34,514 bases of DNA. It comes from Thermoanaerobaculia bacterium (GTDB lineage Bacteria > Acidobacteriota > Thermoanaerobaculia > Multivoradales > J023). Of this stretch, positions 1,415-33,890 are shown one piece after another; within the stretch, counting starts at the first letter, position 1; the number at the start of each line of letters is the position of its first letter. A program made the translations under genes and the position numbers. The notes under the pieces were generated by a model. That model did not search any database. It was not told the origin of the DNA and saw nothing but the letters and a program-made list of their open reading frames with translations. The stretch lies in the NCBI GenBank assembly GCA_030431255.1, contig JAUIJL010000040.1, positions 1 to 34,514 of the forward strand, in the 5' to 3' direction.

Positions 1415-1530
1415 CGCAAATGCATACTCTGATGATCTCGGCCACGGATTTATCCAACACGTCGGTTTTCTTCGAGCGGAGATTTGTCTTGACAGAGAGG
1501 CTCTAGTCTAGTGCACCGAAAGGATCGATT

Positions 1531-4791: not shown

Positions 4792-4913
4792 GGGTTTTGT
4801 CCTTTCCTCGACGGCTCTCGTCGTCCGATGCCCGTTCCGGGTGCTCGTTACACGCCAGATACCGTAAGCCATGGCCGATCGCCGGTCAATTCGCCTCTGC
4901 ATAGCCGATCGCT

Positions 4914-5047
4914 GGTGCGGTGACATCAACGTGGCACCTGTCCGGTGGTGCCGTGACATCAACGTGGCACCTGTCCGGTGGTGGCACCTGTCCGGTGGTG
5001 GGCCGATCGTTGGTGCCGTGACATCAACGTGGCACCTGTGCGGGCAC
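4914..5047 (-). repeat. Tandem GTGCCACGT-type repeat array (33-bp period)
   Basis: Three copies of a unit with GTGACATCAACGTGGCACC on the plus strand start at 4920, 4953 and 5018, with a half copy between the last two. Read on the minus strand, each is GGTGCCACGTTGATGTCAC followed by GGCACC, so GGTGCC and GGCACC can close a hairpin. The array fills the space between the PAE-like gene (ending 5114) and the ketopantoate-reductase-like start. It belongs to the dispersed GTGCCACGT family seen elsewhere in the window. Confidence 0.8.
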
Positions 5048-6823: not shown

Positions 6824-6872
6824 GGCCATCTCCGAAAATGAAGGTTTTTGTGAGCTTGGGTCCAAAGACGAG

Positions 6873-6898
6873 ATCCACAACATCAATCCACAACATCA
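6873..6898. repeat. Perfect 13-bp tandem duplication at a stop codon
   Basis: ATCCACAACATCA occurs twice in direct succession (6873-6885 and 6886-6898). The second copy contains the minus-strand TGA stop of the upstream PAE-like gene, so the stop codon and its context are duplicated. It has the same length as the duplication at 20271-20296. Confidence 0.85.
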
Positions 6899-8497: not shown

Positions 8498-8788
8498 GGG
8501 GTCTCTCCTGGAGCTCCGGTTCCGCCGTGGCGTGTCGCACGGCAATACGAGCTCGGGGTCGAGACGGGGCGCGCCCGTCCAGGTTCGTAGGTAGGAAAGA
8601 CGCTACCGATCAGCCTGGAATATGGGGTCTAGAAGGACTAAGAGAATCGTCCCAAAACCATCAAATCCGGTCGCAACACTAAGTTTTATCGCGCAAGAAC
8701 CCCTGGGCTCCGGGGTTGACGCCAGGTTCGAGGCGCTTTGAGCATCTTCCGACAACGGCGAAAGAGCCCTTTTCTTGGCGGTGCCCCG

Positions 8789-9240: not shown

Positions 9241-9687
9241 ATGAGCCCTACCCCCCGATCGGACCCTGAGCCGGCGCAACGCGCGGCCATATTGGTCATG
9301 GCTAAGATGGCCTTGGTCGATGGAACCTTCTCCAATATCGAGAAGACCTATCTCGCCGCCATGGCCGGCACCACCTCCCTCGACGATCTTCTGGCGGAAG
9401 CGCGCGACGTGCCCCTCGAAGACCTGTGTCGGCAGGTGGACCGATACGAAGATCGCTTCTTCATCGCGTTGCGGGCCTATTCCATGGCCTATATCGACCA
9501 ACACTTCGAGGTCGAGGAGCGGCAGGCGTTCGCCCGCCTCGTCGAGATGTTGGGCATTGCCGAGGAGGATCGGCGCTTGATCGAAGCGACCCATGCGGCG
9601 GCGGAAAGCGAGCAACCGGAAGAGCCTCCTGCTCGCTTGAGGGAGCTCTACGAAGCCTCCTCCTTTGCCGGGGTTTCATCGCCTTGA
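9241..9687 (+). CDS. TerB-like (tellurite-resistance TerB family) protein
   Basis: A 148-aa cytosolic helical protein starting at ATG 9241, with CGGAG eight bases upstream. The segment AAILVMAKMALVDGTFSNIE matches the first helices of TerB/DjlA-type domains, where an Asp-Gly turn follows the MA-hydrophobic helix. A second helical block, YSMAYIDQHFEVEERQAFAR, has the matching second half. TerB domains bind metal ions and act as hubs in membrane-linked stress or conflict systems. The stop codon overlaps the glycosyltransferase start as TTGA. No tellurite reductase or other Ter genes lie in the window, so a tellurite role should not be assumed. Confidence 0.7.
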   Translation: MSPTPRSDPEPAQRAAILVMAKMALVDGTFSNIEKTYLAAMAGTTSLDDLLAEARDVPLEDLCRQVDRYEDRFFIALRAYSMAYIDQHFEVEERQAFARLVEMLGIAEEDRRLIEATHAAAESEQPEEPPARLRELYEASSFAGVSSP

Positions 9688-11468
9688 CGGGAGAACCGGG
9701 CCGGTCCCGTCGACGGCGGCTGAAAATTCTGTTCTACGCTATCAATGGCACCGGGCTCGGCCATCTACAGCGTTTGTTGTCCGTCGCCCGTCCTCTCCGT
9801 GATCTGGTCACCGCGTTCGGCGGTCGGGTGGATATTCAGATCGTCACCACCAGCGACGCGCCGTCGGTGGCCTGGGATTTTCCGGTTTACAAGCTGCCTT
9901 CCAAATCGACCGTGCGGAAACAGGGCGGGCCGGTCGAGGACTTTCAGCGGATCGCCCGCTTGACCCTCATCCAGTTGGCGGCTTCCTTCCGTCCGGACCT
10001 GTTGGTCTTGGATACGGTGCCCGAAGGCGCGTTTCACGAGCTTTTGGTGCTGCGGGATCACGCCGTGTTGACCGCCTTCATCGATCGACGCCGAGATTTG
10101 AAGACGGCGGTTTCCAAAGTCCATCAGAGCCATTTGGCGCTCTACGATCTGGTGTTGGTGCCGGATTACGAGCACCGAGCCCAGCACTATCCCATGGACC
10201 TCCAGCTTCAATCGCGCCGCCGATTCGTCGGCCCGATTCACGGCTGGTCGGCCCATAGGGCGTGGTCCCGTGAGGAGGTACGTCGCCGCCTTGCCGTGCC
10301 CGAGGACCGCCGAGTGGTCTATTTGTCGGCGGGAGGCGGTGGCGACCGTCGAGCTCGCGACCAGATGGAGGCCTTGGTCCGCGTGCTCGCCGACGATCCG
10401 CGCTTTTTCTTGCTCTTGGGGTATGGCCCCCTTTTCCGGGGTCCCTTGCTCTACGGCCCCCATCGGATTCCGTTCACCGGCGCCGAGGTCGGCCGCTATT
10501 TTCTCGGGGTCGATGTAGCCATTTCCGCCGCCGGTTACAACACCTTCCAAGAGCTTCTGGCCGCTGAGGTGCCGACGGCCTTCTTTGCTCAAGCCAAGGG
10601 GCTGGACCGGCAGGATGAGCGCATTTCCGAGGGCCTCGGATCCGGTTTCCATCTCGAGCTGCCGGATTTTCAATCGGAGACCATTCGGAACACCGTGGAT
10701 CGTTTGACGGAACCGGATGTCGTCACCTCCATCCGCGGCCGTTTGTCGACCCGGCCGGTGGCCGATGGCGCCCTGCGAGCCGCTTCCGAGCTGTTGCGGG
10801 CCGCGGTGGAGAACGGGCGTGGCGGCATGGATCGGGGGGAGATTCCTTTGGCGGAGCAATGGCTGGGCCATTGGGCCGAGGTGGTGGCTCGGGAACGGGA
10901 GCGCGATCCGACGCAAGCCCAAGACGACATCTCGTTCACCGGGGCCTGCCGTCCCGTGCTCGAAGCGGCGGGTTTCGCCGGCCGACTGAACCGACTCTAC
11001 GATCTTGCCCTGGTCGCGCGAGAAACCGGGCAGCCGTCACCCGGCTGGACGGCACAGGTTCTAGAGCTGTTGACCTGGGGGCTGCGGATGGATCGCTTCT
11101 TCAACGAGCTGGAAGCGTCCAACGCGGATCGTCGACGCTGGCTGAAATTGGTGTTCTCCGCCGTGGAGTCGGAGCACGGTTGGTTGGCGCGCCTTCAGCT
11201 ATTCGAGGACCTTTCGAATCACGGCGCACCCGTGGGTGGTTTGCTACGAGCGCTCGACGAAACCCTCCATCGCAAGCAGGCCTGGCCGTGCCTGCAAGCG
11301 GTGCTCGAGGCTCTGGGAGAAGGATCCGTCGGCCCGGCCGATCTGGCCGCGGCCTTCGAGCACAGTGAAGAACACAATGAAGAACACAGTGAAGGCCCCC
11401 TTTCCATCGACGATGTTCAACACATTCTCGGGTCGACGGCCCGTTCCCTTGGAGATGCTTCCCCATGA
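9684..11468 (+). CDS. MurG-like GT-B glycosyltransferase with C-terminal helical extension
   Basis: A 594-aa protein. Start TTG 9684 is chosen because it overlaps the TerB-like stop (TTGA) just before the conserved N-terminus; the frame is open further upstream but there it overlaps TerB. LKILFYAINGTGLGHLQRLL (13-32) is the glycine loop of the GT-B N-terminal domain. VVYLSAGGGGDRR (211-223), the FTGAEVGRYF segment near 264-273 and AISAAGYNTFQELL (279-292) match the MurG/GT28 C-terminal domain, where the nucleotide sugar is bound. Residues from about 375 form an unrelated, mostly helical region ending in a Glu/His-rich stretch. No transmembrane segment is evident. It is the middle gene of a three-gene overlapping operon. 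Donor and acceptor are unknown. Confidence 0.75.
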   Translation: MTGEPGRSRRRRLKILFYAINGTGLGHLQRLLSVARPLRDLVTAFGGRVDIQIVTTSDAPSVAWDFPVYKLPSKSTVRKQGGPVEDFQRIARLTLIQLAASFRPDLLVLDTVPEGAFHELLVLRDHAVLTAFIDRRRDLKTAVSKVHQSHLALYDLVLVPDYEHRAQHYPMDLQLQSRRRFVGPIHGWSAHRAWSREEVRRRLAVPEDRRVVYLSAGGGGDRRARDQMEALVRVLADDPRFFLLLGYGPLFRGPLLYGPHRIPFTGAEVGRYFLGVDVAISAAGYNTFQELLAAEVPTAFFAQAKGLDRQDERISEGLGSGFHLELPDFQSETIRNTVDRLTEPDVVTSIRGRLSTRPVADGALRAASELLRAAVENGRGGMDRGEIPLAEQWLGHWAEVVARERERDPTQAQDDISFTGACRPVLEAAGFAGRLNRLYDLALVARETGQPSPGWTAQVLELLTWGLRMDRFFNELEASNADRRRWLKLVFSAVESEHGWLARLQLFEDLSNHGAPVGGLLRALDETLHRKQAWPCLQAVLEALGEGSVGPADLAAAFEHSEEHNEEHSEGPLSIDDVQHILGSTARSLGDASP

Positions 11469-12931
11469 TGACCAAAGAGCAGGCCGCGAATATGGCGGTC
11501 CGGGCCGTGACCGAGTATGAGTCTCAGATGGGTGAGTACGCTCGGCGGCATCAATCGATCGCCGAATCCATGGCTCGCAACAAGGGCAAGCTACGGCACA
11601 CCTGCGACCGGTTGGCACTGGGTTTGGTGCGAGACATCGACGCGGGGACCATCGACCGAGTTGCTTCGGAGACGGGCTGCCTGGATCTGCCGGTGAAGCT
11701 GCAGAACCTCTTCACAGAGCGGCAAAAAGCCGAGGAGCGCAAGGGCCAAATTGAAGGCATATCCGGGTTTCAAAATAGGGAGCTCTTGTTGCATCCGAAA
11801 ACCGGTGAGTTTTCAGAAAAGGTTTCCGAGCACCAATCGTTGATCACCTCGTTCGAGCGAGAGCTCGATCGATTCGATCTGCCGGAATTCCGTTGGCTTT
11901 ACGCGCGACGTGCCCATGAGTCCAAGTCGGATACTGCGTTTCAATCCTTTCTCAGGGTGGTGACCTTGGCCGACCATCGCGAAGAGCGAGCCTTGGAAAA
12001 GGTTCGACAAGCGTTGGGTGACTTGACCTTTGCTCAGGTCGTCGACGATTACCACCGGACCGAGACATCCCTGGCCTTTCACCGCGAAGAGCTCGAGACC
12101 TGGCAGAGCAAACATCGGACGCTAGCCGCCGCGGTGAAGAGCCACGAAGAGCTGAGAGACTGGCTGAGCCGTTTCGATAGCATCGCCCTCGACTATCTGC
12201 GCAAATGTCTCAGCGCCCATCTCCAGGAGACCGATTTCGACTGGCTCTACGGCAACATTCGCAAGGAAGGCAAAGCCCTGGTGGCGCAATGCCATGCGCT
12301 GCAGAAAAAGAGCGCCTACTTCTCAGATATGCGGGGCTTCCTCGAGAAAGAAATGGAAGATCGGCGAGAGCGCTGCCGCTCGATTCGACGGGTCGAAGCG
12401 AAGTGGCGGGCTCGCCCCAACGACTATCTCTATGACGACAAATCCAACTGGCTGCAAACCCTTCCCCGCAAAAAACGGCAGAGCACCTCGAAACACGTGA
12501 CGTGGGTCGATACCATGCATCACAACGTAGATTCCTATGAGGACTATGACGACTACCATCTCTTGATGGAGTCAACGGTGACCTTCCTCGCCTATGACGC
12601 CTTCGCCCTCTCAGCCGATGAGCGCATGCCCTACGAAGGATTCAGCCGCACGGTGATCGACGAGCTCGATGACTTCCGCGACGACCACGATATGGAGCGT
12701 CCGGACTACCGCGAGCTCCGTGCGTTGGTCGCTGAGGGCGAGATCGCGGAGGCCGACATGATCGCGGAGACCGACATGATCGCGGAGACCGACGTTGAGG
12801 GGGACCCGGCCCAGAGCTGGGACGAAGCGGACGAGGGAGACGACGCGGCCGCCGTCGCCGCGGTGGCCGCTGTCGCCCTCTTGGAGATTCAAGACGATAT
12901 GCCCGACAGTCTGGGCGTCGAAGCCAGCTGA
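11465..12931 (+). CDS. Coiled-coil protein of unknown function, third gene of the TerB-glycosyltransferase operon
   Basis: A 488-aa protein whose ATG overlaps the glycosyltransferase stop (ATGATGA). I do not recognise the family. Residues 1-310 are charged and helix-rich with long heptad-like runs, consistent with coiled coils. Residues about 345-400 contain an Asp/Tyr-rich segment (VDSYEDYDDYHLL). Residues about 425-443 carry three copies of a six-residue repeat (IAETDM type), and the C-terminus is acidic with an Ala/Val run. There is no signal peptide, and no firmly placed membrane segment although the Ala/Val run is hydrophobic. The gene order suggests a structural or scaffolding partner for the other two proteins. 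Confidence 0.7.
   Translation: MMTKEQAANMAVRAVTEYESQMGEYARRHQSIAESMARNKGKLRHTCDRLALGLVRDIDAGTIDRVASETGCLDLPVKLQNLFTERQKAEERKGQIEGISGFQNRELLLHPKTGEFSEKVSEHQSLITSFERELDRFDLPEFRWLYARRAHESKSDTAFQSFLRVVTLADHREERALEKVRQALGDLTFAQVVDDYHRTETSLAFHREELETWQSKHRTLAAAVKSHEELRDWLSRFDSIALDYLRKCLSAHLQETDFDWLYGNIRKEGKALVAQCHALQKKSAYFSDMRGFLEKEMEDRRERCRSIRRVEAKWRARPNDYLYDDKSNWLQTLPRKKRQSTSKHVTWVDTMHHNVDSYEDYDDYHLLMESTVTFLAYDAFALSADERMPYEGFSRTVIDELDDFRDDHDMERPDYRELRALVAEGEIAEADMIAETDMIAETDVEGDPAQSWDEADEGDDAAAVAAVAAVALLEIQDDMPDSLGVEAS
12740..12793 (+). repeat. Three 18-bp tandem repeats inside the coiled-coil gene
   Basis: Units at 12740-12757, 12758-12775 and 12776-12793; the last two are identical (ATGATCGCGGAGACCGAC) and the first differs at two or three positions. 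They encode (E/M)IAE(A/T)D in frame, so copy-number change would not break the protein. This suggests recent slippage expansion. Confidence 0.9.
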
Positions 12932-13022: not shown

Positions 13023-15062
13023 TTACAGGTTTTTCAGCCGCTCCAATCGATCCTTGGCGCGGGCCCCCAAGACTTGCAAGGAGAGATCCGTCGCCTGATC
13101 GAAGACGGCGACGAGCTCGGCTTGGGCGGCTCGGGGGCGACCCCGGGCCACTTCTACATCGGCGACCTGCAGACGGGCCGTGAGCAAATCCGGCGTGCGT
13201 CCGAGTCGCGCGAAAACTTCCACCGCTGCCCGGGCGTTGCGGTAGGCGGCGTCCAGGTCACCTCGACGGAGGTGGACGGCGGAAAGGCCGAGTCGAGAGT
13301 AGGCGATTCCAGCGCCGTCCTCGACCCTCTCGGCGAGACTCAGGCATTCCTCGTATTCGAGCTCGGCCGCGTCCAAATCACCGACGGCGAGAAAGACGTC
13401 GCCCCGGGAACGGTGCCAAAGGATCTGACGTCGGGGCTCCTGGGATCCGTGGATCAGAGCCTGTGCCTCCCGTAAGGGCTCCCAGGCTTGCTGAGGATTC
13501 GGGCCGGTGGCATCGATCTGCGCCAACAAGCAGAGAGAGACCACCAGGCGTCGTTCCAGGCCGTGCCGGCGCGCGGCATCGATGCCGCGGACCAGCAGTC
13601 GGCGAGCCTCGTCTCGGTCACCGATCTGCACAAGGAAAAGCGCTTGACGATTGAGCACCGAGACCAGGGCGTCGCGATCTCCATGTACTTGAAAGAGTGT
13701 TTCGGCCCGACGATAGAGGTTGCGACCCTCATCCGCCGGGCCGTGCCTTTCCGCGAGAAAGGCGCGGCTGCGGGCCAGCTCGGCGGGTTGTAGGCCGTTC
13801 GTTTGCGCGTCGGCGGATTCGAGCTCGTCCACCAGTCGCTCGGCTTCCCCCATCAGTCCTCGGCGCAAAAGCACCGTGAGCAGGCGTAAGCGGGCCGGAA
13901 CGGTGACGGCTGCGTCCTCGCCCGAGACCAGTCGTCGTGCCAGGGCCTCGGCACCGTCGAGGTCGTTGGTCGCCGCCAGCACATGGAGCTCCAGCAGATC
14001 CAAGCTGGGATGGGGACCGCTGTCGCGCCGCAGCCGGCGGATCAGGTCCAAGGCCGCGTCGGTCCGGCCGGATTCGATCCAAGCTCGCGCCAAACGCAGG
14101 CCATACTCGCGTTCTTCCGGCCGCCGCTGCCAAAGGGCTTGCAGCAGCTCGGCGGCCTCGGTCCAATCGCCGCGGGTCTCGGCGGCCCTTGCCTCGGCGG
14201 AGCGAGCGGTTTCCCAGGGGGCGCCCGAAACATGGCGAGCCGCGCGTCGTGCTGTTTCAGCAGCCAGGGAGTCGAGTCCCAAGTGGCTGTAGACCTGGCT
14301 CAATCGGTCGAGGATCAGGGGGTTCCCGGGCTCCATCTCACCCGCCGCCTCGAGCTTGCCTCGGGCGGTTTCGAAATCCAAGCGCGCGATGAGGTCCTCG
14401 GCTTCTCGAAGGAGACGCGAAGCTTGCGGCCGAAGCTCAGGCGGTGGTGATGGTTGAGCGTGGAGTGTCGCTTGGGCTCCTGTGGTTTTGGTCCCGGGCG
14501 CATGGGTGCCGACGAAGAGCCACAAGCTGAATCCGGCGAGGATTGCCGCGGCGCCCAACCCGACCGCGGCGGCGGTCCGCTGGCGGAAGGGTTGGATCGG
14601 CGCGGGCTCGACGACGAGGTCCGATCGATCGTCCTCTGGCGTGGGTGCAAGCGCGAGCACAGGAGCCGAGACCGTGTGGGGTGCCGGGCAAGTCGGTTTT
14701 GGAGACGTCTCGAGGTCGGCATCGGCGGGCTGGACCGAAGAGTCTTGAGGCGGGACTCGCTCGACCGGCACCATGAGCCGATAGCCCCGGCGCGGCACCG
14801 TGGCGATGATTTGTGGAGCAGCGGCCGAATCACCGAGGGCTTGGCGCAGCTCGCTGACGGCTTGGCGAAAGGTGCCGACGGACACGTGCTCGACGTCCCA
14901 GGCGCGATCGATGAGCTCATCGACGCTGAGTAACTCTGGCGCGTGCTCCACCAAGACCTGAAAGAGGCGGAACGTCTGAGGACGGAGATGAGCTTCACCG
15001 TCCGGACCTATAAGGCGACCGGACACCGTGTCGAGGATCCATCGAGACACCTTATATCGCAT
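13023..15062 (-). CDS. CadC-like membrane winged-helix transcription regulator with TPR region
   Basis: A 679-aa protein. Residues 1-100 form an OmpR/PhoB-type winged helix (Trans_reg_C), including LRPQTFRLFQVLVEHAPELL and the wing segment IIATVPRRGYRLMVPV. A Pro-rich linker is followed by a single transmembrane helix at about 164-184 (AAAVGLGAAAILAGFSLWLF). The remaining 490 residues are Ala/Leu/Arg-rich helical repeats of TPR type, predicted outside the cytoplasmic membrane. This is the ToxR/CadC one-component layout, in which a periplasmic sensor controls a cytoplasmic DNA-binding domain. It is divergent from the CHAT operon, and the six-copy repeat array lies in the shared 302-bp upstream region, so it is a candidate regulator of that operon. 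The ribosome binding site at ATG 15062 is weak. Confidence 0.85.
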   Translation of the reverse strand: MRYKVSRWILDTVSGRLIGPDGEAHLRPQTFRLFQVLVEHAPELLSVDELIDRAWDVEHVSVGTFRQAVSELRQALGDSAAAPQIIATVPRRGYRLMVPVERVPPQDSSVQPADADLETSPKPTCPAPHTVSAPVLALAPTPEDDRSDLVVEPAPIQPFRQRTAAAVGLGAAAILAGFSLWLFVGTHAPGTKTTGAQATLHAQPSPPPELRPQASRLLREAEDLIARLDFETARGKLEAAGEMEPGNPLILDRLSQVYSHLGLDSLAAETARRAARHVSGAPWETARSAEARAAETRGDWTEAAELLQALWQRRPEEREYGLRLARAWIESGRTDAALDLIRRLRRDSGPHPSLDLLELHVLAATNDLDGAEALARRLVSGEDAAVTVPARLRLLTVLLRRGLMGEAERLVDELESADAQTNGLQPAELARSRAFLAERHGPADEGRNLYRRAETLFQVHGDRDALVSVLNRQALFLVQIGDRDEARRLLVRGIDAARRHGLERRLVVSLCLLAQIDATGPNPQQAWEPLREAQALIHGSQEPRRQILWHRSRGDVFLAVGDLDAAELEYEECLSLAERVEDGAGIAYSRLGLSAVHLRRGDLDAAYRNARAAVEVFARLGRTPDLLTARLQVADVEVARGRPRAAQAELVAVFDQATDLSLQVLGARAKDRLERLKNL

Positions 15063-15105
15063 GCGGGGATCTTAACCGCAAATTTCACCGGTCATCTTCT
15101 GCTGA

Positions 15106-15255
15106 GAAGGTGCCACGTAGTTTCCGGGAGGAAGGTGCCACGTAGTTTCCGGGAGGAAGGTGCCACGTAGTTTCCGGGAGGAAGGTGCCACGTGGTTTAC
15201 GGGAGGAAGGTGCCATGTTGTGTCCGAGGCGAAGGTGCCATGTTGTGAGCGGGTC
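15106..15255 (+). repeat. Six tandem 25-bp GTGCCACGT repeats in a divergent promoter region
   Basis: Units begin at 15106, 15131, 15156, 15181, 15206 and 15231. The first three are identical (core GAAGGTGCCACGTAGTTTCC plus five bases). The fourth has GTGGTTTAC, and the last two decay to GGTGCCATGTTGTG. No unique spacers exist, so it is a minisatellite-like array, not CRISPR. It occupies half of the space between the regulator start (15062) and the CHAT gene start (15365). Copies decay towards the CHAT gene, suggesting expansion from the regulator side. Confidence 0.95.
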
Positions 15256-15364
15256 CGTTGGCTGTCGCGTGTGCGCCCAGCTTGGATGAGCCCGTTTCTT
15301 AACAAGCGTCGCGTTTCCCTCAATGAGAGCCTCGATCTCCCGGAATCTTCGAGTGGGAGGAGCC

Positions 15365-17590
15365 ATGCTGATCACCATCCTCGTTCTGGCGGCCAATCCC
15401 TTGAGTGCTGCACGGATAGTCTTCGATCGGGAAATCGAGATCATACGGAATGCGCTCAAAAGCTCGAATCTCCGCGACAGCTTCCGGATTGAAACCCTGC
15501 TCTGCGCCAATCCAGAGACGGTACCCAAGGCGGTGCTCAATGCCGCACCGACGCTCGTGCACTTTATTGGTCACGGCTCCGGTGTTCCGGACCGTCAGGG
15601 GCTCATTTTTGACGACGGCAACGGTGATGGTCTTGTGGTGGGGCCCAAAGCCTTGGAAGGTTTTTTTAAGATCTTCCGAGACCAAGTCCGCTGTGTGGTT
15701 CTCAACGCCTGCAACACGAGTCCTCATGCCGAAGCCATTTCTCACCACATAGATTTTGTGGTGGGAATGAAGGGGCCGATCAGTGATCCGGCGGCTATCG
15801 CCTATGTGGTCGCCTTCTACAACGCGTTGGGTGTCGGAAAAGGAATCGAGACCGCTCACGCTCTGGGCAAGAACGCCTTGCTTTGGCTGGATTCTGCGGA
15901 GCTCGACGATGAGGTCGTGAACGAGCACGAGGTTCCTGAGCTCTATCGGCGAGACGGGGTGGGGGATTTGCTGATCGGGACCGGAGAAGCAGCCGGCGCG
16001 ACCAACGGCGGCGAGGACAAGAAGTGCTCCAAAGGGGATTTCGATCTACGAGTAGACAAGCTAGGAGCCTCCCTTGGGGACCCGATTCCCTTACGAGTGC
16101 AGGAAAGGAGGCAAGAGATGTCGAGCGCTGTCGGTGCGGACCCTGTTGTGTCACCGTTGCCCGAGTCTCCCGCGCAGCAGCGGCAGTTCATGGAGCTCAT
16201 CGTTTCGACCTATCGGGCAGGAAGGGAGCGGCAGCCTGTCTATGGCTTGCCGGCGGCGGAAGAAACTGCTTGGATCAAGTTTTTAGAAAGTTATATTGAG
16301 CTGCATCAAAGCCGCAATTATAGAGCGGCCAGCGATCTCTATGACCTGTATAAGACACGGTTAGATGAGTTGCCGGACTTCCCGCCTCATGTGTGCTCGC
16401 TGCTAGAGGAGGGGCTTCCCCGAAAGCCGGTGCATCTGGAAACAATTGGTGAGCTTTCTGTCGAAAAAATCGTCAGAAGCTCGGAACATTCAGCTTTTTT
16501 GTTGGGCCTCAGGTTGACGGAAATCGATTACGTGAGGGCTGACGAAACCTTCGAAAGAATACTGCAAGATCCCGAATGGGCCAGGATCTCGCAGTGTCAT
16601 CTGTTTGCTTATGCCCGAGCAGTATGTGCCCGCAAATTGGGTCGGCTCGAAACGGCCCATGGCATTCAGGCTTCTCCAATCAAGGAGCTCGAGCAAGGGC
16701 AGATTACTAGATCTTGTGAGTGTGGTGGCACCTGCTACCAAGGTGAGCTTCTGGTTCAGATGTATCGTAATCAGGGTTCGATTTTCCGCAAGTTGTCCAA
16801 CGACTCGAACCCTCCCAGCAAGGAGAGCTGGAAGAAGGCCCAGGATTATTTTTCTAAGGCTATTTCTCTCGTGGAAGACATGCTGTCGAAAGGTTTGTCG
16901 ATCGAAAAGAAAATCCAAGCTGAAGTGAATTACAGTTATGGTTATTTTCTGCTTGAGGGCTACCATTTGCGTCCAACTCCCGAAGCCTCCGGCCCTAGGG
17001 CGATCAGGGAGGCGGTGGACTGCTTTGAGAGAGCGCGAAAGCTCCGGCCGAAATGGGGCGCGCCGCCCACGAGGAGGGCGATTTGCAAGCTGATCTCGCG
17101 ACCTTGCCACGAGGAAAACTATGAGAATTTCCTCTCGGCTCGGGCGGTCGGAAAAGTCGAACGAGGGGGAGAGTCCGCTCTGACGTACCTGCTGGCGGGA
17201 TTCGGCATGTTGGCAGCTAGGCCGGAAGCCGCCGCTAGCCACGGTGTCGCAGATGGAACGCTCACTCCGGAAAAGCTGTATCAAGAGGCTATTAGGGTGG
17301 TGGAAAGACGACCCGCGGCCAAGGGACCTTTCGAGTGCCACGCGCTGGATTGCGAAATGATTGCAAGGGCCATCGAGCTCGACGGCAAGAAGCTTTTCCA
17401 AGGACAAGACTTAAGGACCCTAACCTTGGGTTGGAGACCGAAAGATCGAGCCTATGAGAATTACTGTAAATATTTAATCCTGATCAATAAATTGCTTTGG
17501 CAGGCACCAGAGTGGAATATCGAAGGAGATCTCGAACAACAGATCGTGCATCTCCAGACATTTCGGGCAGACGTGGAGCGACTCCTATGA
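15365..17590 (+). CDS. CHAT-domain caspase-like protein with helical-repeat C-terminus
   Basis: A 741-aa protein starting at ATG 15365, with GGGAGG four bases before it; an in-frame ATG at 15323 exists but lacks this site. Residues 1-180 form a CHAT (caspase HetF-associated with TPRs) domain. The first strand is ITILVLAANP; the His motif LVHFIGHGSG gives His70, and the Cys motif CVVLNACNT gives Cys116. Both catalytic residues are present, followed by the family's FVVGMKGPISDPAAIAY segment. Residues about 270-741 look like divergent helical/TPR repeats, with a Cys cluster SCECGGTCYQG (Cys451, 453, 457). CHAT peptidases cut partner proteins, often in conflict or programmed-death systems; the substrate here is unknown. 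It is first in an apparent operon with two oxidoreductases and a VOC protein, 25 bp before the next gene. Confidence 0.85.
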   Translation: MLITILVLAANPLSAARIVFDREIEIIRNALKSSNLRDSFRIETLLCANPETVPKAVLNAAPTLVHFIGHGSGVPDRQGLIFDDGNGDGLVVGPKALEGFFKIFRDQVRCVVLNACNTSPHAEAISHHIDFVVGMKGPISDPAAIAYVVAFYNALGVGKGIETAHALGKNALLWLDSAELDDEVVNEHEVPELYRRDGVGDLLIGTGEAAGATNGGEDKKCSKGDFDLRVDKLGASLGDPIPLRVQERRQEMSSAVGADPVVSPLPESPAQQRQFMELIVSTYRAGRERQPVYGLPAAEETAWIKFLESYIELHQSRNYRAASDLYDLYKTRLDELPDFPPHVCSLLEEGLPRKPVHLETIGELSVEKIVRSSEHSAFLLGLRLTEIDYVRADETFERILQDPEWARISQCHLFAYARAVCARKLGRLETAHGIQASPIKELEQGQITRSCECGGTCYQGELLVQMYRNQGSIFRKLSNDSNPPSKESWKKAQDYFSKAISLVEDMLSKGLSIEKKIQAEVNYSYGYFLLEGYHLRPTPEASGPRAIREAVDCFERARKLRPKWGAPPTRRAICKLISRPCHEENYENFLSARAVGKVERGGESALTYLLAGFGMLAARPEAAASHGVADGTLTPEKLYQEAIRVVERRPAAKGPFECHALDCEMIARAIELDGKKLFQGQDLRTLTLGWRPKDRAYENYCKYLILINKLLWQAPEWNIEGDLEQQIVHLQTFRADVERLL

Positions 17591-17615
17591 AAGGTCACGA
17601 CTGACGGAGGAAGCC

Positions 17616-18698
17616 ATGGACCAGACAGTTGTAACCCGGGATATCTTTTGTGTAGGGCTTGGGCAGCAATTCTCCAAGTGGTTGTGCCCTGTGCTGAAAG
17701 CCTCCGAGCCGGACTTCACCGTGCGCGGAATCTGTGACGTGAATAAGAATCGGTTGGGACGGATCGAAAAGGAGCTGGGGCTCCCTGGGCTTCAAACCGT
17801 TCGGACTTTCAACGATCTGCTGGAAGTCGCGGCGGATCGAGCTCGAGCTTCGGAGACGGAAAGCCCGATTTTTGTGATTTCAACCCCGCCTGAATGTCAC
17901 TTTGAGCAAGCCAAGAGATGTCTTGAGGCCGGCTTTCACGTCTACGTGGATAAGCCGCTGACTCCCCAAGCCGTCAGCGCTCAACATCTGGTAAGTCTGG
18001 CGAAGCAAAAGAACCTCAAAATCGTAGTCGGAGCGCAGCGTCGTTTCGAGGTGATCTTCCGCGAATTCCTAAGGGCCGCTGAGGGGATTGGGGAGATTCA
18101 AAGGTTCCGCATCCATGCCCATGGCACCTTTTGGCCGCCCCAGCCCTTCCATCCTGAGAACGCGATCATTCCGAGCGGCAACGGTTATCACCTGCTCGAC
18201 ACCCTCTGTTGGTTGGTCGAGGAGCTGGGCGGTCACCCTTCCAGTGGCCAGGTGGTCAGCGCCACCCTCCGGCGGTCCCCTAACAATCCCAGCCAATACG
18301 CCGCCTTTGAGGCATTGTTATGCTTTCAGATTCTAGGACGGCCCGTGCCGGTCACAGCCGAGTGCTCCAATCTCGGGCCGCCTAATTTTGTCGACGAAGG
18401 GTTGCTCGCCGCTGGACCCGTAGGGGAAGTACAATATCGCCGGCATTGTGCGCCGAGAAACGACGATCCTGGTGTGTTGACCCTGGCTCAGTGGGATCCC
18501 ACCCACCAAACTATGCACGGCTTGGAAGAGTTGACCAACCCGGCGGCCAAGCCCGACCGAGGGTTGCCGCTGAAGCATTTGCTCGCTCTCTTGAGCGGCA
18601 TCGAGACGGGGCCTGAGCAGTCCACCGGAGCCCACGCGTTGAGCACGCTGCGCTTGATCGACGCCATCATTAAAGACGGCTTGGAAATCGAGAATTGA
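17616..18698 (+). CDS. Gfo/Idh/MocA-family oxidoreductase 1
   Basis: A 360-aa protein starting at ATG 17616 behind GGAGG. The N-terminal Rossmann segment has a variant loop VGLGQQFSKW (13-22) rather than a standard GxGxxG. FVISTPPECHFEQAK (86-100) and VDKPLT (111-116) correspond to the family's STPxxxH and EKP motifs. GNGYHLLDTLCWL (188-200) holds the conserved H-x(2)-D pair (His192, Asp195) used in catalysis. The family uses NAD(P) to oxidise or reduce sugars, inositols and related compounds. It has the usual length, lies 25 bp after the CHAT gene and shares a start-region pattern with the second copy at 19174. The substrate cannot be inferred. Confidence 0.8.
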   Translation: MDQTVVTRDIFCVGLGQQFSKWLCPVLKASEPDFTVRGICDVNKNRLGRIEKELGLPGLQTVRTFNDLLEVAADRARASETESPIFVISTPPECHFEQAKRCLEAGFHVYVDKPLTPQAVSAQHLVSLAKQKNLKIVVGAQRRFEVIFREFLRAAEGIGEIQRFRIHAHGTFWPPQPFHPENAIIPSGNGYHLLDTLCWLVEELGGHPSSGQVVSATLRRSPNNPSQYAAFEALLCFQILGRPVPVTAECSNLGPPNFVDEGLLAAGPVGEVQYRRHCAPRNDDPGVLTLAQWDPTHQTMHGLEELTNPAAKPDRGLPLKHLLALLSGIETGPEQSTGAHALSTLRLIDAIIKDGLEIEN

Positions 18699-18700
18699 AT

Positions 18701-19111
18701 ATGCGAGTCAAGAGCTTTCACCACATTTGCATTCAGACCGAAGACTACGATGCCTCGATGCGCTTCTACACTGAGCTGCTCGGTTTTGAATTGATTAAGG
18801 AAACAGCCGGCTTTCACACCCGCGACTTTAATTCGTGGCTGCGGGGTGGCGGGGTGATGATCGAGCTGCAAACGCCGAAGCACGGAACCAGCTTTAAATC
18901 CTGGTCAAAGCTCAATGCAGGGCCCGTTCATTTCGCGCTGGTGGTGGATGACGTACGGGCCGCCTACGACGAGCTGAAAGTTGCCGGGTGGAACCATTTC
19001 AAACGGAAAAACGGCACCGAGGTCTACGAAGTCTGCGGCTCATCACTATTCAAGGTGCTCGCACCAGAAGGTACTGAAATTGAAATTCGGGACGATCCTG
19101 AAATCGGTTGA
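18701..19111 (+). CDS. VOC-superfamily (glyoxalase/dioxygenase-like) protein
   Basis: A 136-aa protein. Start ATG 18701 is preferred over TTG 18695, which overlaps the previous stop. It has two beta-alpha-beta-beta-beta modules: SFHHICIQTEDYDASMRFY opens the first and PVHFALVVDDVRAAYDELK the second. His8, His77 and Glu128 (in GTEIEIR) sit where VOC metal ligands normally lie, so a metal-dependent enzyme is plausible. Members include glyoxalase I, extradiol dioxygenases and resistance proteins. The gene is sandwiched between two Gfo/Idh/MocA genes with only 2 bp to the first, implying a joint pathway, but no substrate can be named. Confidence 0.8.
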   Translation: MRVKSFHHICIQTEDYDASMRFYTELLGFELIKETAGFHTRDFNSWLRGGGVMIELQTPKHGTSFKSWSKLNAGPVHFALVVDDVRAAYDELKVAGWNHFKRKNGTEVYEVCGSSLFKVLAPEGTEIEIRDDPEIG

Positions 19112-19173
19112 GCATCTCGGCCCGTCGGCGCATTGGGCCCCAGCGAGCTCTGCGAGTCTCTCGCTGGTCAGCC

Positions 19174-20220
19174 ATGGATAGGGGCCTGGTGAGAGCTCGG
19201 ACGCTTCTGGTCGGCTATGGAGACATGGTCCGGAATCATCATCTCCCGGCCCTGGAGTGCTCTCCAGACGGCATTCCGGTCGGCATAGTGCGGGCGAGGG
19301 CGGGAGCCTCTTGCGAGCAGGGGCTACCGGTCTTCAACGACCTCGAGCACGCTTTGGAGGCCCTAAGTCCCGACCTCGTGGTGATCTCGACCCCCCACCG
19401 TCTCCACTTCGAGCAGACCCGATGTTGTCTTCTCCACGGATGCCACGTTCTTGTGGACAAGCCCACGGCGTTGCATCTCGATGAGGTGGAAGCTCTCGTT
19501 GCGCTCGCAGCCTCCCGCGGGAAATTGTTGGTCGAAGGCCTACAGAGACGCTACGAAGAGCTAATGTGCGTATTTCGTGAGCTCATTGGTCAAGGGAGGC
19601 TCGGGGACCTTCGAATGGTCCACGGGTTCTTTGCCCATCGCTTTGGGGCGATGCCCGAGGGCAGTTGGAGAGCTGACCCTCAAAGCGTGGGAAATGGTAT
19701 CTTGGACGATAGCGCGGTCCACCTGATCGATCTCTTAGTGGCGATGGCGGGGGAAGGCCAGAAAGAGCTCCGCCTGCACTTCTTGTCGAGCCCGGTCAAT
19801 GGGATGTGCCATTCTTTCAGCGCGATGTACAAAACGGAGCGGGAGACTCTGGTATCTGCCGTCGGCAGCTACTTGTCGCCGGCGCATTCCGTGCAGGAAG
19901 AAATCTCCGTGCTCGGCACGAAAGGCTCACTTTTTGGACGCCGCTTCTGTATTGAGCACAATATTGAGCCGCCCATGGTGGTCTTCAAAAGCGCTGACGG
20001 CGGAGAGGTGGTCGATTTCGACCTATCGCAGCGCCCTTCGGGAAGAGCGTTGCCCCTGAAAACCATCCTTTCCGTTCTCTCCGGCCGAAGTGACCGCAGC
20101 CTGCTCAAGACCGAAGCCCATCAAACCCTCGGTAGCCACCGGGTGCTCGACTTGATGCGTCGGGCGGCGGTTGTGCCCCTTGAGCGGTCTGGGGGACTCA
20201 CGCCTGGAATTTCGCTGTAG
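19174..20220 (+). CDS. Gfo/Idh/MocA-family oxidoreductase 2
   Basis: A 348-aa protein. ATG 19174 is chosen because its N-terminus MDRGLVRARTLLVGYG aligns with MDQTVVTRDIFCVGLG of the first oxidoreductase. An in-frame TTG at 19108 overlapping the VOC stop is an alternative. Visible motifs are VGYGDMVRNHHLPAL (13-27), VISTPHRLHFEQ (70-81), VDKPTAL (94-100) and GNGILDDSAVHLIDL (173-187; His183, Asp186). As in the first copy, the usual EKP is DKP. The two are clearly paralogous in layout but diverged in sequence, suggesting two steps of one pathway or a hetero-oligomer. Confidence 0.8.
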   Translation: MDRGLVRARTLLVGYGDMVRNHHLPALECSPDGIPVGIVRARAGASCEQGLPVFNDLEHALEALSPDLVVISTPHRLHFEQTRCCLLHGCHVLVDKPTALHLDEVEALVALAASRGKLLVEGLQRRYEELMCVFRELIGQGRLGDLRMVHGFFAHRFGAMPEGSWRADPQSVGNGILDDSAVHLIDLLVAMAGEGQKELRLHFLSSPVNGMCHSFSAMYKTERETLVSAVGSYLSPAHSVQEEISVLGTKGSLFGRRFCIEHNIEPPMVVFKSADGGEVVDFDLSQRPSGRALPLKTILSVLSGRSDRSLLKTEAHQTLGSHRVLDLMRRAAVVPLERSGGLTPGISL

Positions 20221-20270
20221 TACGCGAATAGGAGAATTGCCGGGTCTCATAGGCGACCGGAAAGGTGCGA

Positions 20271-20296
20271 TGAAAAGAAGTGCTGAAAAGAAGTGC
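20271..20296 (+). repeat. 13-bp tandem duplication at the start of the lipoprotein gene
   Basis: TGAAAAGAAGTGC is present twice in direct succession (20271-20283, 20284-20296). Removing one copy would join ATG at 20270 directly to AAAAGAAGTGCCACG in the reading frame of the lipoprotein (MKRSAT...). With the duplication, that ATG is out of frame and the only in-frame start at this point is GTG 20280. Confidence 0.85.
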
Positions 20297-21383
20297 CACG
20301 TTGTTTCTGAAGTCGACGGTCCATCGCTGCTTATGGCTGCTGCCGCTGTTGCTCTGCCTCAGCGGCTGCGCCGGCTCCTTGAGCCGTCTCGAGCTTGAGC
20401 GAGCCGACCTTGAGCCCGACGATCTGCCGGGCGTCGAACACGTTGCGGTGACCTATTTCGGGGCTTCCGGGCTCCTGTTGCGCCGTGGCGACGAAGCGAT
20501 CCTGGTGGATCCCTTTTTTTCCAATCCGGGGCTGTTGAGGACGTTGGCGGGTCGAATCCGGACCCGTCCCGATCGGGTGGACGCGCTGCTGCCTGAGGTC
20601 GACGACGTCTCTGCCATTCTGGTCAGCCACAGCCACTACGATCATTTGATGGACGTGTCTCACGTGGCGCTCACCAAGGCGCCTCGGGCTGTTGTCTACA
20701 CCAGTCGCACCGGCACCTGCATTCTCGATTCGGAATTCTCTCGGGCCGACGCGCTGGACCGTCTGAAAGCGATGGGTGACCCTCCGTGTCGGCCTGAGGT
20801 GGACCAGGAACCGCTGAAACCCAAGGAGTGGATCGATGTGACCCCGCGTCTGCGATTCATGCCTCTGCTCTCGGAGCACGCACCGCACTTCCGAGGGAGA
20901 TCCCTTTACGGAGGCACGCGCGCACAGCCCCTAGGCAAGGTGCCGAACCGTGCCTCGAATTACCGCAAAGGGCGGGTCTTCGCATTCGTGATCGAGTTTC
21001 TGACCGTCACCCACGACCAAACCAGGGTCGACTTTCGGGTCTATCTTCAGGGCTCCGCCTCAAACGCAGGGCAAGGTCTTCCACTAGAGGACCTCAAGGA
21101 ATTCGATCTGGCGATTCTCGCCGCGGCCGGTCACCACGAGGTTCAGGGATATCCTGGGTCCATCTTGAAGCGGCTGCGGCCCGAGCACTTGCTGGTCTCC
21201 CATTGGGAAGATTTTTTTGCCGCTCCGCAAAAACCCCTGAAAACCGTACGCGGCACCGACGTGCGGGAATTCCTCGATAAGGTCGAAGATTCTCGCAAAG
21301 AGCTTCCGAAGCTCGGTCCCAGCCGACTGCTGGCACCCGGTAGCCGAGCCGTTTATCCTGTCCGCGACGCGAAACCTAGATAG
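20280..21383 (+). CDS. Metallo-beta-lactamase-fold lipoprotein
   Basis: A 367-aa protein. The N-terminus has Lys/Arg residues, a hydrophobic stretch LLPLLLCL and lipobox LSGC, so it is a predicted lipoprotein. Residues about 54-80 (VAVTYFGASGLLLRRGDEAI then LVDPFF) and SHSHYDHLMDV near 115-125 show an MBL fold with the HxHxDH zinc motif; HAPHFRGRS and VSHWEDFF provide later His ligands. The pattern resembles UlaG/NAPE-PLD-like hydrolases rather than beta-lactamases. The presumed start is GTG 20280, displaced by a 13-bp duplication. It lies 59 bp after the second oxidoreductase and may be the last gene of the CHAT operon or a separate unit. Confidence 0.8.
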   Translation: MLKRSATLFLKSTVHRCLWLLPLLLCLSGCAGSLSRLELERADLEPDDLPGVEHVAVTYFGASGLLLRRGDEAILVDPFFSNPGLLRTLAGRIRTRPDRVDALLPEVDDVSAILVSHSHYDHLMDVSHVALTKAPRAVVYTSRTGTCILDSEFSRADALDRLKAMGDPPCRPEVDQEPLKPKEWIDVTPRLRFMPLLSEHAPHFRGRSLYGGTRAQPLGKVPNRASNYRKGRVFAFVIEFLTVTHDQTRVDFRVYLQGSASNAGQGLPLEDLKEFDLAILAAAGHHEVQGYPGSILKRLRPEHLLVSHWEDFFAAPQKPLKTVRGTDVREFLDKVEDSRKELPKLGPSRLLAPGSRAVYPVRDAKPR

Positions 21384-21672
21384 CGACCCCATGCTTCGCG
21401 CTCGGCTGCGACGCCGTCATGTCAGGCAGCTGCCCGTGTGCTCATGAACGCTCAGGTAGACGAAGTGGCGTTGCAAGAAAACTCAATCCTCCGAATGTAA
21501 AAGGTTCCGAATGCAAAAAGCTTGAAACATAAAAGAGGATGAGCGAAGGTGGACGGCAAGCCCAAAAAATGGTGTCGACACCGAATCGACGATGGTAACC
21601 TCCCAACGAGTCACGCTCATTGCGTGGCTTCCTCCCTACTAAGAACACGCGTTAATAGAACTAATTTTCCGC
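21384..21672. other. Gene-free stretch after the MBL lipoprotein
   Basis: No convincing gene, promoter or structured RNA is visible. Short frames on the minus strand lack ribosome binding sites. The sequence is more AT-rich than neighbouring genes. Confidence 0.4.
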
Positions 21673-21721
21673 AATAAGTGAAAGATCCCGCCGGAATGAG
21701 GCCGGGGATCTTTCACTTATT
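21673..21721 (+). terminator. Strong 17-bp terminator-like hairpin
   Basis: AATAAGTGAAAGATCCC (21673-21689) pairs perfectly with GGGATCTTTCACTTATT (21705-21721) around a 15-base loop, and TTTTCGCTTT follows on the plus strand. It would end plus-strand transcripts from the MBL operon. A second small palindrome, CGCTTTAAAAGCG, follows directly. Confidence 0.75.
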
Positions 21722-21865
21722 TTCGCTTTAAAAGCGCGGCTCCGATGGCCGCGAAGAGCAGGGCGAGCAGCGCCAGGCCAGACCCCGCACCGACAGGTTA
21801 CGGCACGGTGAATCCGAAGTCGATCGAGTGGTCGTTGGCCCCGGGGCCGCCAGCCAGGCGCAGGC
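21717..21865 (-). pseudogene. Truncated 3' end of a surface-protein gene with C-terminal membrane anchor
   Basis: The minus-strand frame ending at TAA 21717-21719 encodes GSGLALLALLFAAIGAALLK followed by RK and stop: a hydrophobic helix plus basic tail, as in IPTL/PEP-CTERM-type sorting signals. Upstream in the same frame lies LRLAGGPGANDHSIDFGFTV, typical of the end of SdrD-B-like surface domains. A single in-frame TAA (21798-21800) separates the two. The coding character stops exactly where a GTGCCACGT repeat starts at 21866. This is best read as a gene remnant whose 5' part was lost at the repeat. Confidence 0.6.
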
Positions 21866-21885
21866 AGGTGCCACGTAGTTTCCTA
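21866..21885 (+). repeat. Single GTGCCACGTAGTTTCC element
   Basis: One copy of AGGTGCCACGTAGTTTCCTA, identical in its core to the arrays at 15106 and 25758. It abuts the truncated surface-protein gene. Confidence 0.85.
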
Positions 21886-21989
21886 CGGTTCTTTGAGATC
21901 GCAGAACGTGACAAACGCCGGTCGGAAATTCGACCGGCGTTGGTCTTCGACTGAGCGGTTTGGGGCCCGCTCCGGGTCAAATGGACGCC

Positions 21990-24900
21990 TCAGTCGGAGT
22001 CGGTCCACTGAGAGGTGTCGCCGGATTCGAAACCGTCGGCGAAGAGGCCCGAGCGGATTTGGACGTTGGAGGTCAGCTCGTCGCCGGCCGGTGAGGCGAA
22101 GGACGGAGCCGGATCCTGGGAGATGGCGAGCCCACCTTCGAAGAGCTCGGTGGCGGGCACGCCGACTTCTATGACGATCCCTTCTGGAAGAGCTTGCTGA
22201 CTGAGCTCAGCAATCGCAACGTCGAGCTCACCGTCGGTGTCGCTTTCACTCCAGAGCACAGTGACCGACCCCGGCCGACCCTGAGGGAATCGCAGCAGAT
22301 CGGGCACACCATCGGCGTCGGCATCGACTGACCCAAGGTCGAAGAGGGCCGGGTCGAGGTCCAGGGAAAGGGCAAAGCCGCCGATGGGATGCACGGGTCC
22401 GAGCTGCTGCAAGGTCAGCTGCTGTGACGTCACCTCGAGACGAATCCACGACACCCCGGATTCCCATCGGGTCGAGACCTCAAGCTCGCTTTGGTTTTGG
22501 AGCTCGCCGGTGAAGCCGCACGCGGTTTCGGTGCTCAGCAGATGCGAGCAGACCAAGTCCGCTACTCGGATTTGGAGGTCGTCATTGGCATCGCAGCCCA
22601 CGGGGCTTCCGGAGAACGTGCCGCCCGGGGCGTCGATCCAAGCTTCGCCGTCAGCGTCGAAAATTTCGAGCGCCGTGGCTTCGAGATCGGCGGAATCGAC
22701 CATGCCGTCGGCGTTGCAATCCCCTCGGTCGCCGGACCAAATCCGCACCACACCGTTGCCGGCGTTGCCGGAAATGCTCTGCCCTAGGCTCGTTTCAAAG
22801 CCCACCTCGGGGTCGAGGGCGAAATCCACGGCGGCGTCGGTGGACGAGCCCGGGGCCGCGGAGCAGGTGGTCTGGAAGCCGAGGGTCAGCAGGGCACCGT
22901 CGGGCAGCCCGCCGTCCACGCCGTCGAGCAAGCTGAGGGAGAGATCCAGCTCACCGTCGGTGTCGAGGGGGTCGAAGGCGATGTCGACACCGAGCACCTC
23001 GGGCAGCTGAGGCTCGATTTGGTCCGGAATGCCGTCGCCGTTGAGGTCGGGGTTGAGGCAGGCCTCATCGTAGTCGATGGAAAAAGTTGTCGATTCCAGG
23101 GATCGACCGTCGGTTTGGAGCTCGATGGGGATCTCCACCCAAGATGAGACCGCGGCGTGGGCGAGCGGGGGCAAGCTGAGGCTCGGCGGTGAAAAACACG
23201 TGTATTTGGCCATCTTCATGGAAGGCAGACCGTCCACTGTGGTGAAGCCGCCGCCGAGGTATAAGGAGGATCGAGTGCCGTCGTGGTAGGGCACCATGGC
23301 GTTGATCGATCCGTTGACGCCGTCGCCCATGGGTTGCCATTGAGATCCGTCCCATCGGGCGAGATGGCTCACCGGTGTGGCTCCTGAGAATTGGAAATAA
23401 CCCCCGGCATAGATGGCAGGGCCGGTGCCGTCGTCGAAAGCGCCCAAGCCGAAGACCAAATCGTTGAGACCCGCGCCCATCGCCGACCATCCGCTGCCGT
23501 TCCATTTTGCGATTCGGTACGCGACGGCTCCGTCGGCGGCGGTGAAGTCGCCGCCCGCGTAGAGGGCGGGCCCGTTGCCGTCGTCGAGGGTCGCCAAACG
23601 ACGGATCCGGTTGTTCGTGCCACCACCCAGATTGGACCAGCTCGTTCCGTCCCATTTCGCGATATTGGCGGCTGCGACTCCGCCCGCGGTCGTAAAATCG
23701 CCGCCGGCATAGAGTGCCGGACCGTCGCCGTCGTCAAAGACCGCCAGGGAACGGACCCTTGTGCCGATTCCGGTACCCATGCCCGTGCCGAGTGTCGACC
23801 ATGAGGTGCCGTCCCATTTGGCGATGTAGCCGGCCGTCCTGCCATCGATTTGGAAGAAGTCGCCGGCTATGTAGAGCGCTGGGCCGTTGCCGTCGTCGAA
23901 AACCGCAAGGTCTAAAATTGAGCCATTGAAGGTCAGCTCGAGTGACGACCATGCGCTGCCGTTCCATTTGGCGATGCTGTCGGCGGGTACCCCACCGGCG
24001 TCGGCGAACGAGCCGGCGGCATACAGCGCTGGGCCGTTGCCGTCGTCAAAGACGGCTAGGGTGTTGACGATGTTGTCGATGCCGGATCTCAGGGGGTGCC
24101 AGCCCGTTCCGTCCCATCTGGCAACATGCCGGGCGCTGATGTCACCCGCGGTGCGGAAGAGTCCGGCGGCATAGAGTGCAGGGCCGTTGCCGTCGTCGAA
24201 CGTTGCGAGGTCGTGAGCTTGCGAGCTCAGCCCCGATCCGGTGGGTGGATCGCTACTGACCGCGCTCCACGTGGAGCCGTCCCAAGTCGCAATACCGTTG
24301 GCCTTACCGGGAATCGTGAGAGCGCCTCCGGCGAGGAGCTTCGGGCCGCTGCCGTCGTTGAAGACGCTTAGGTGTACCACGGCGTTTTCAAATTGCGAGC
24401 TCAGCGAGTGCCAAGCTTGACCGTCCCATTTGGCGATTCGCCCAGCGGAGACCCCGCCCGCGGTCCGGAACGAGCCTCCGACAAAGAGAGCCGACCCACT
24501 GCCGTCGTCGAAGACGGTCAAGTCGTAAGCCCAGCTCCCGACCCCGGCCCCTAAGGGTGACCACTGTGAGCCGTCCCATTTGGCGATTCGATCGGCGGCC
24601 ACGCCGTTGACGGAGGTGAATTCTCCCCCCACGTAGAGAGCCGACCCGCTGCCGTCATCGAAGGTGTCGAGGGCTCGAACGGGTTGGTCGGTGCCCGTGC
24701 CCATCGCCGACCAAACGGTGCCGTCCCACTTGGCGAGATGTTGGGCGCCGGTCGCTCCAGCGCTAGTGAACTTGCCTCCCGCGTAGAGGGCAGATCCGTT
24801 GCCGTCGTCAAAAACGTGTAGGGCATGGACTTGGTCGCTCGCACCCACGCCCACGCCCACACCGACCGCCGACCAAGCCGTGCCGTCCCACCTCGCGATG

Positions 24901-25757: not shown

Positions 25758-25860
25758 GAAGGTGCCACGTAGTTTCCTGAGGGCCGAGCGAGAAGGTGCC
25801 ACGTAGTTTCCTGAGAAGGTGCCACGTAGTTTCCTGAGAAGGTGCCACGTAGTTTCCTGG
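25758..25860 (+). repeat. Four GTGCCACGTAGTTTCC repeats (23-bp unit)
   Basis: Copies start at 25758, 25792, 25815 and 25838. The last three are contiguous with a 23-bp period, and the first is separated by 11 bp. The core GGTGCCACGTAGTTTCC matches the 15106 array, but the linker is CTGA instead of CGGGAG. The array lies between the response regulator end (25894) and the upstream region of the propeller-protein gene. Confidence 0.95.
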
Positions 25861-33792: not shown

Positions 33793-33890
33793 CCGAGCTT
33801 TTGCGCCACGTAAATATGGTTGAGGAGATGAACTTGATGCGGCCGAGCTTTTGTGCCACGTAAATATGGTTGAGGAGATGAATTTGATGC
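33793..33890 (+). repeat. Two-copy 48-bp direct repeat with GTGCCACGTAAATATGG core
   Basis: Copies at 33793-33840 and 33843-33890 (period 50 bp) differ at two positions. Each starts CCGAGCTTTTG, has the core (C/T)GCCACGTAAATATGG and ends TTGATGC. The core resembles the GTGCCACGT family. The pair lies directly after the aminopeptidase gene and downstream of the second transposase gene. Confidence 0.9.

Follow-up and report, generated by a model that had tools for sequence, protein, structure and literature searches.

The DNA analysed here, referred to as the window, comprises positions 1 to 34,514 of contig JAUIJL010000040.1 from a Thermoanaerobaculia bacterium (assembly GCA_030431255.1). On its forward strand it carries a gene for a CHAT caspase-like cysteine protease, directly followed by two oxidoreductases of the Gfo/Idh/MocA family (Gfo1 and Gfo2) with a VOC protein between them. 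The features at this locus, with the basis of each gene assignment in brackets, are as follows:

15365-17590, + strand: CHAT caspase-like cysteine protease, 741 amino acids (Pfam, structure model, alignment)
17616-18698, + strand: Gfo/Idh/MocA oxidoreductase 1 (Gfo1), 360 amino acids (Pfam)
18701-19111, + strand: VOC (glyoxalase-I-like) protein, 136 amino acids (Pfam)
19174-20220, + strand: Gfo/Idh/MocA oxidoreductase 2 (Gfo2) (Pfam)
20280-21383, + strand: MBL-fold protein (Pfam) with a lipobox (LSGC, read by eye)
13023-15062, - strand: CadC-like winged-helix regulator with a TPR region, divergent (Pfam)
15106-15240, + strand: 25-bp intergenic repeat, 5.4 tandem copies, in the interval between regulator and CHAT gene
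20293-20307, + strand: single copy of the repeat core, 3' of Gfo2 and extending over the start of the MBL open reading frame (ORF)

The genes at this locus are real, as follows from a Pfam match on every one of them and from the pattern of GC content over the codon positions. Scores are 35.7 bits for CHAT (PF12770, cut-off 24), 55.8 and 66.6 for GFO_IDH_MocA, 51.8 for Glyoxalase, 37.3 for Lactamase_B_2 in the MBL protein and 55.7 for Trans_reg_C (plus TPR) in the regulator. All are above the Pfam cut-offs, which confirms the families assigned in an earlier inspection of the letters alone (the sequence-only reading). The layout given there is borne out by the coordinates as well: four genes in a row on one strand with gaps of 25 bp (CHAT-Gfo1, 17590/17616), 2 bp (Gfo1-VOC, 18698/18701) and 62 bp (VOC-Gfo2, 19111/19174), an MBL gene after a further 59 bp (20220/20280) and a divergent regulator. 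The TTGA overlaps proposed for alternative starts are present too, if TTG at 18695 and 19108 is used in place of ATG at 18701 (VOC) and 19174 (Gfo2). The CHAT gene most likely begins at the ATG at 15365. A purine-rich stretch (GGGAGGAG) ends 2 bases upstream of it, and because this spacing is so close for a ribosome-binding site, we infer the start rather than take it as given.

The CHAT domain covers about residues 1-205. Its catalytic dyad, described before as intact, is indeed present in the 741-residue protein read from ATG 15365, with His70 in a GHG and Cys116 in an LNAC motif; in an alignment of 20 CHAT domains (19 homologues and this one) Cys116 is invariant and His70 is conserved in at least 90%. 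The predicted model of the domain has a predicted local distance difference test score (pLDDT) of 92.4, and the closest solved fold is SAVED-CHAT 8tl0 (Z 26.1, root-mean-square deviation 2.0, 193 residues; Foldseek E 2.7e-15), followed at Z 14.8 and below by the anti-sigma factor DdvA, caspases (Z about 14) and gingipain. By sequence, too, 8tl0 (E 1.5e-6) is the one PDB entry that the protein matches when hits up to E 1 are admitted. By its model the domain is caspase-like in fold, and it is an ordinary CHAT domain of a protease known in kind, for which the conserved residues would predict proteolytic activity. The genome is rich in such domains: its 10.2 Mb contain 45 matches, this gene included (44 over the Pfam cut-off), among them a paralogue 43% identical to this CHAT.

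Behind the N-terminal CHAT domain, from about residue 215, follows a tail of ~520 residues. It had been described as a long helical-repeat tail; the length stands, whereas for the repeat nature there are two weak TPR matches, both under the Pfam cut-off, and a single-sequence model of the full-length protein that is too poor for use (pLDDT 38.3). From these sub-threshold matches and the low-confidence model the tail appears weakly TPR-like. A relative sharing it was found neither in 98 related genomes (own genome included) nor in 396 genomes of the phylum, two samples that overlap. A scan of wider genome contigs by short peptides, which can miss distant orthologues outside the phylum, gave 15 pattern matches, none of them a relative. 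When plasmids were queried with the full protein, 65 records matched, in none of which a single stretch took in 80% of the query (28% or less for the best 25 of 65), and the tail alone matched nothing in phages or plasmids. One CHAT region (L121) gave a match whose extension beyond the CHAT domain, as far as query residue 321, looks like chance. The protein holds no Pfam domain besides CHAT and the weak TPR matches, and SAVED is not among its matches; nor was there a match of the effector-associated domain (EAD) type. EADs, which with CATRA partners mark the ternary conflict systems described in PMC8195603, are small and possibly missing from the library.

The three genes behind CHAT can encode active enzymes, judging from their residues. 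Gfo1 and Gfo2 are distant paralogues (30-34% identity). The lysine of a D/E-K-P motif and an HxxD motif are the hallmarks by which the Gfo/Idh/MocA family is known, and Gfo1 has them as Lys113 (D-K-P) and H192xxD195; Gfo2 likewise has D-K-P and HxxD. The Rossmann domain is matched in both proteins, the C-terminal Gfo domain in Gfo2 only. In the VOC protein H7, E55, H77 and E128 form a metal-ligand pattern (the first three align with glyoxalase-like 3l7t, E128 was placed by eye), a four-ligand arrangement that we take to be that of E. coli glyoxalase I. By sequence, YhhX and DgpA (PDB 3f4l and 7xr9) belong to the same family as the two Gfo proteins, and because these matches are distant and of partial length, no substrate can be read from them.

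No orthologue of Gfo1 was recognised in the collections searched. At E 1e-10 it matches only itself and Gfo2 among the 98 relatives, and its best relative in both genome samples is the neighbouring Gfo2. The 396 phylum genomes add nine weak matches, each in a different further genome and 66-163 residues long at 30-50% identity, and the short-peptide scan of wider genome contigs, which can miss distant orthologues outside the phylum, adds ten (27-37% identity), while 124 plasmid records hold distant Gfo proteins, all below 60% identity (24-31% in the best 25 of 124). The own genome has five Gfo matches, two of them at this locus. All Gfo counts in the two samples are lower bounds, up to 20 candidates per genome having been scored in the relatives and up to 5 in the phylum sample.

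Codon usage sets the four genes apart as a group. Against ORFs sampled from the own genome, CHAT falls in the 5th percentile, Gfo1 in the 12th, VOC in the 10th and Gfo2 in the 11th, and at the left border the GC content, about 0.67 before it, drops to 0.50-0.60. Given this common atypical codon usage, together with their position between repeat copies, the four genes may have been acquired together as one block, and are perhaps co-transcribed. For the regulator (a CadC-like winged helix with a TPR region, and a membrane segment read by eye) the percentile is 45th, for the MBL gene 27th and for the next gene 40th. The place of the MBL gene in the block is doubtful because of its 27th percentile, and both it and the regulator probably lie outside. 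A divergent CadC-like gene also accompanies the CHAT gene in region L121, where the match to the present regulator is confined to the winged-helix end.

The intergenic repeat is itself specific to this genome. Its 16-base core occurs 79 times (66 forward and 13 reverse, at most one mismatch; reversed-pattern control 0), against 0 or 1 copy in every other genome (one copy in 5/97 other relatives and in 12/395 others of the phylum sample); a 15-base pattern occurs 50 times forward and 2 times reverse (control 3 and 0). Window copies, all on the + strand, lie at 15106-15240, 20293, 21868 and 25762-25856. Elsewhere, copies were mapped at the start of contig C1, at 76-143 kb of C4, 0-11 kb of C5 and 187-197 kb of C27, a partial map that covers these stretches and not all 79 places. 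The mapped copies stand mostly between script-called ORFs (some inside short or doubtful ones), single or in tandem, with variable spacers and a period that is often 23-28, and on any one contig they mostly point the same way; C4 and C1 both terminate inside the same array. A 19-base core has no exact match in viral contigs, and the array none in plasmids (blastn). Two explanations of the repeat were tried and dropped. Ends of IS21-type elements as its source find no support, with 0 copies in four regions around IstB genes (5/7 IstB matches). A role as general border of foreign genes does not hold either: the ORFs next to repeat clusters, 30 in number, show no greater atypicality than those at random intergenic places (mean codon score -0.019 against -0.035; 77% of 2,000 placements at or below the observed value). 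The repeats do not generally flank atypical genes elsewhere in the genome, which does not favour them as the vehicle of the block; they are a separate feature, perhaps more distinctive than the gene block. A related tandem array of opposite orientation and period 33 is present at 4913-5035 of the window.

If the protease and the enzymes formed an established system, their neighbourhood would be expected in other genomes. CHAT homologues were detected in 7/97 other relatives (E 1e-10) and 11/395 other genomes of the phylum sample (E 1e-8), with two genomes common to both sets; these counts are lower bounds, the best 10 candidates per genome having been scored in the relatives and the best 2 in the phylum sample. 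We compared 24 CHAT regions of 7.0-16.5 kb with 26 CHAT ORFs (several regions are short at contig ends, and one is that of the 43% paralogue). Since no homologue sharing the tail was found, the comparison applies to the CHAT domain as such. With tblastn (E 0.01), which can miss VOC relatives, none of the 24 regions gave a match to Gfo1, VOC, Gfo2 or the MBL protein. CHAT homologues without the oxidoreductase and VOC genes are what the sequence-only reading had named as speaking against its proposal, and this was found for 26/26 CHAT ORFs. Starting from the enzymes, 19 Gfo loci were compared and none has a CHAT or VOC match (nine have only ~1.5 kb on each side), while the queries do detect diverse Gfo genes in them. 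The CHAT-Gfo-VOC-Gfo arrangement is a single instance in the material examined. With recurrence in 0/24 regions, chance joining fits better than an old functional module, and a chance neighbourhood is not negligible because CHAT genes are so common in this genome (45 matches).

These results bear directly on the proposal that the locus is a metabolite-gated protease module, in which the Gfo and VOC enzymes make or remove a molecule sensed by the CHAT tail, or are themselves cleaved. Tight gene order, the codon usage that the four genes have in common, the retained catalytic and metal residues of Gfo1, Gfo2 and VOC and the presence here of two of the genome's five Gfo matches all favour it, but no second example was seen in the 24 CHAT regions or, within the flanks available, at the 19 Gfo loci, Gfo1 is unmatched at E 1e-10 in the 97 other relatives, and its matches in the phylum sample, genome contigs and plasmids are weak and general. 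We consider such a module unlikely. What can be retained from the sequence-only reading is the tight same-strand unit, now joined by the shared codon usage, and the statement that it resembles no described system (none joining CHAT with Gfo/MocA enzymes was found in the open-access literature or by PADLOC); a metabolite-sensing protease or a pathway controlled by proteolysis, as suggested there, is unsupported. Direct coupling of protease and enzymes is possible, gene order and shared codon usage being the observations that speak for it.

Known CHAT systems offer a further comparison. SAVED-CHAT 8tl0 shares the CHAT fold of our model, but there CHAT is C-terminal (chain residues 304-514) and accompanied, by its title, by a SAVED domain, whereas here CHAT is N-terminal, has no SAVED match in Pfam and is followed by an orphan helical tail. 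A passage of PMC11417357 counts SAVED-CHAT as one of the protease effectors found in type III CRISPR systems. The TPR-CHAT protease of Craspase (PMC9729208) likewise combines a CHAT protease with helical repeats; a passage of PMC11106740 has Craspase link target-RNA recognition by gRAMP to this protease, with Csx30 as natural substrate. With Foldseek the present CHAT matches 8eey chain B (Cas7-11 with Csx29 and Csx30; E 7.8e-6) and 7zoq (a CRISPR effector with a caspase regulator; E 8.8e-6). The locus differs in that no Cas family occurs among the scanned window ORFs (a genome-wide search for Cas7-11 was not made), and the domain order in Craspase, presumably TPR before CHAT, is opposite to that of this protein. 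CHAT proteins of the 'ILFLAANP' type, from the same phylum and from cyanobacterial plasmids, are about 24-44% identical over the CHAT domain; they differ in length and make-up, none aligns to this tail, and none of the 24 regions around those of the phylum has a Gfo or VOC match (the comparison covers phylum loci).

In line with these likenesses, the CHAT protein might be the immune effector or activator of an anti-phage or cell-death system, with the enzymes in signalling or NAD metabolism. A table in PMC10952713 has the CHAT protease under both Borvo and type III-E CRISPR, the nearest fold is SAVED-CHAT, and the PADLOC 'chat' model (PDLC02988) matches the protein, though over 11-149 of its 455 positions only, that is, the CHAT part. 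Nonetheless, no defence-specific neighbour was recognised: among 16 window ORFs PADLOC matched the CHAT domain, sigma-54 regulator domains and trypsin-like protease domains, and in the Pfam scan of 27 window ORFs neither a SAVED nor a Cas nor an EAD family came up. Moreover, with 45 CHAT matches in one genome many need not serve defence, and we hold a defence role here to be decidedly unlikely.

The reading we prefer, to which we give about equal belief and doubt, is that of a sensor-type CHAT protease beside a separate small redox pathway, within an acquired, co-transcribed block of four genes (15.3-20.2 kb). The four genes would probably have been acquired, and be transcribed, together. The tail is most likely a sensor or oligomerisation part that would restrain the His70/Cys116 dyad until a signal arrives; it is expected as the signal receiver because of the analogy with characterised CHAT proteases, and on the signal the protease would cleave a partner protein. 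Gfo1, VOC and Gfo2 would form a small NAD(P)-dependent redox pathway, with VOC as a metal-dependent enzyme of the glyoxalase type and perhaps a sugar- or cyclitol-like substrate. Both halves may share a promoter, and direct functional coupling is not required.

Several observations weigh against this reading. Codon usage was ranked against sampled ORFs that a crude script had called; percentiles of 5-12 are moderate, and other ORFs, some at the left end of the window, are as atypical or more so. The right border lacks a clear GC rise, with values of 0.54-0.62 as far as 21.7 kb. Direct evidence of insertion was not seen: neither transposase nor integrase families came up among the 27 window ORFs scanned with Pfam; the genome has 12 Phage_integrase matches, none on contigs C47, C4, C5 or C1. 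The stretch 14900-22000 yielded no promoter-like site. Finally, with 45 CHAT genes and an assumed 8,500 genes, a given gene group would have a chance of roughly 0.5% of following immediately on a CHAT gene, which leaves room for a real link between protease and enzymes. It might also be argued from part of these data that the block is decaying foreign DNA, an inserted and unexpressed ballast: it is a single instance with atypical codons and repeat-rich surroundings, and the missing promoter-like site would fit. Given that four frames are intact and the catalytic residues kept, however, we find this explanation rather improbable.

A bolder form of the link, in which the orphan TPR-like tail of a redox- or metabolite-gated bacterial caspase reads the product of the Gfo and VOC enzymes and the whole is a transferable cassette bounded by the repeats, is in our view very unlikely. 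If the link were true, a caspase-like protease would be gated by small-molecule metabolism, a sensor type of which the CHAT passages in PMC10952713, PMC11417357 and PMC8195603 make no mention. If it is false, the locus illustrates how easily a CHAT gene, with 45 matches in the genome, can be misread as part of a neighbouring operon.

Some further features of the window lie apart from this locus. At 9426-12931 (+) two ORFs of 680 and 488 amino acids overlap; the former has no Pfam match, the latter weak coiled-coil matches below the cut-off, and neither is matched by PADLOC. Two pectinacetylesterase-like ORFs stand side by side at 5114-8545 (-). Rfam identifies parts of a group II intron at 563-1433 (+), namely D1-D4-7 (563-694) and Intron_gpII (1336-1433), ~0.9 kb together; between them ORF 877-1362 (minus strand) has very atypical codons and no Pfam match. 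Directly 3' of an M1 peptidase ORF, a 50-bp unit is repeated twice in tandem (33793-33890).

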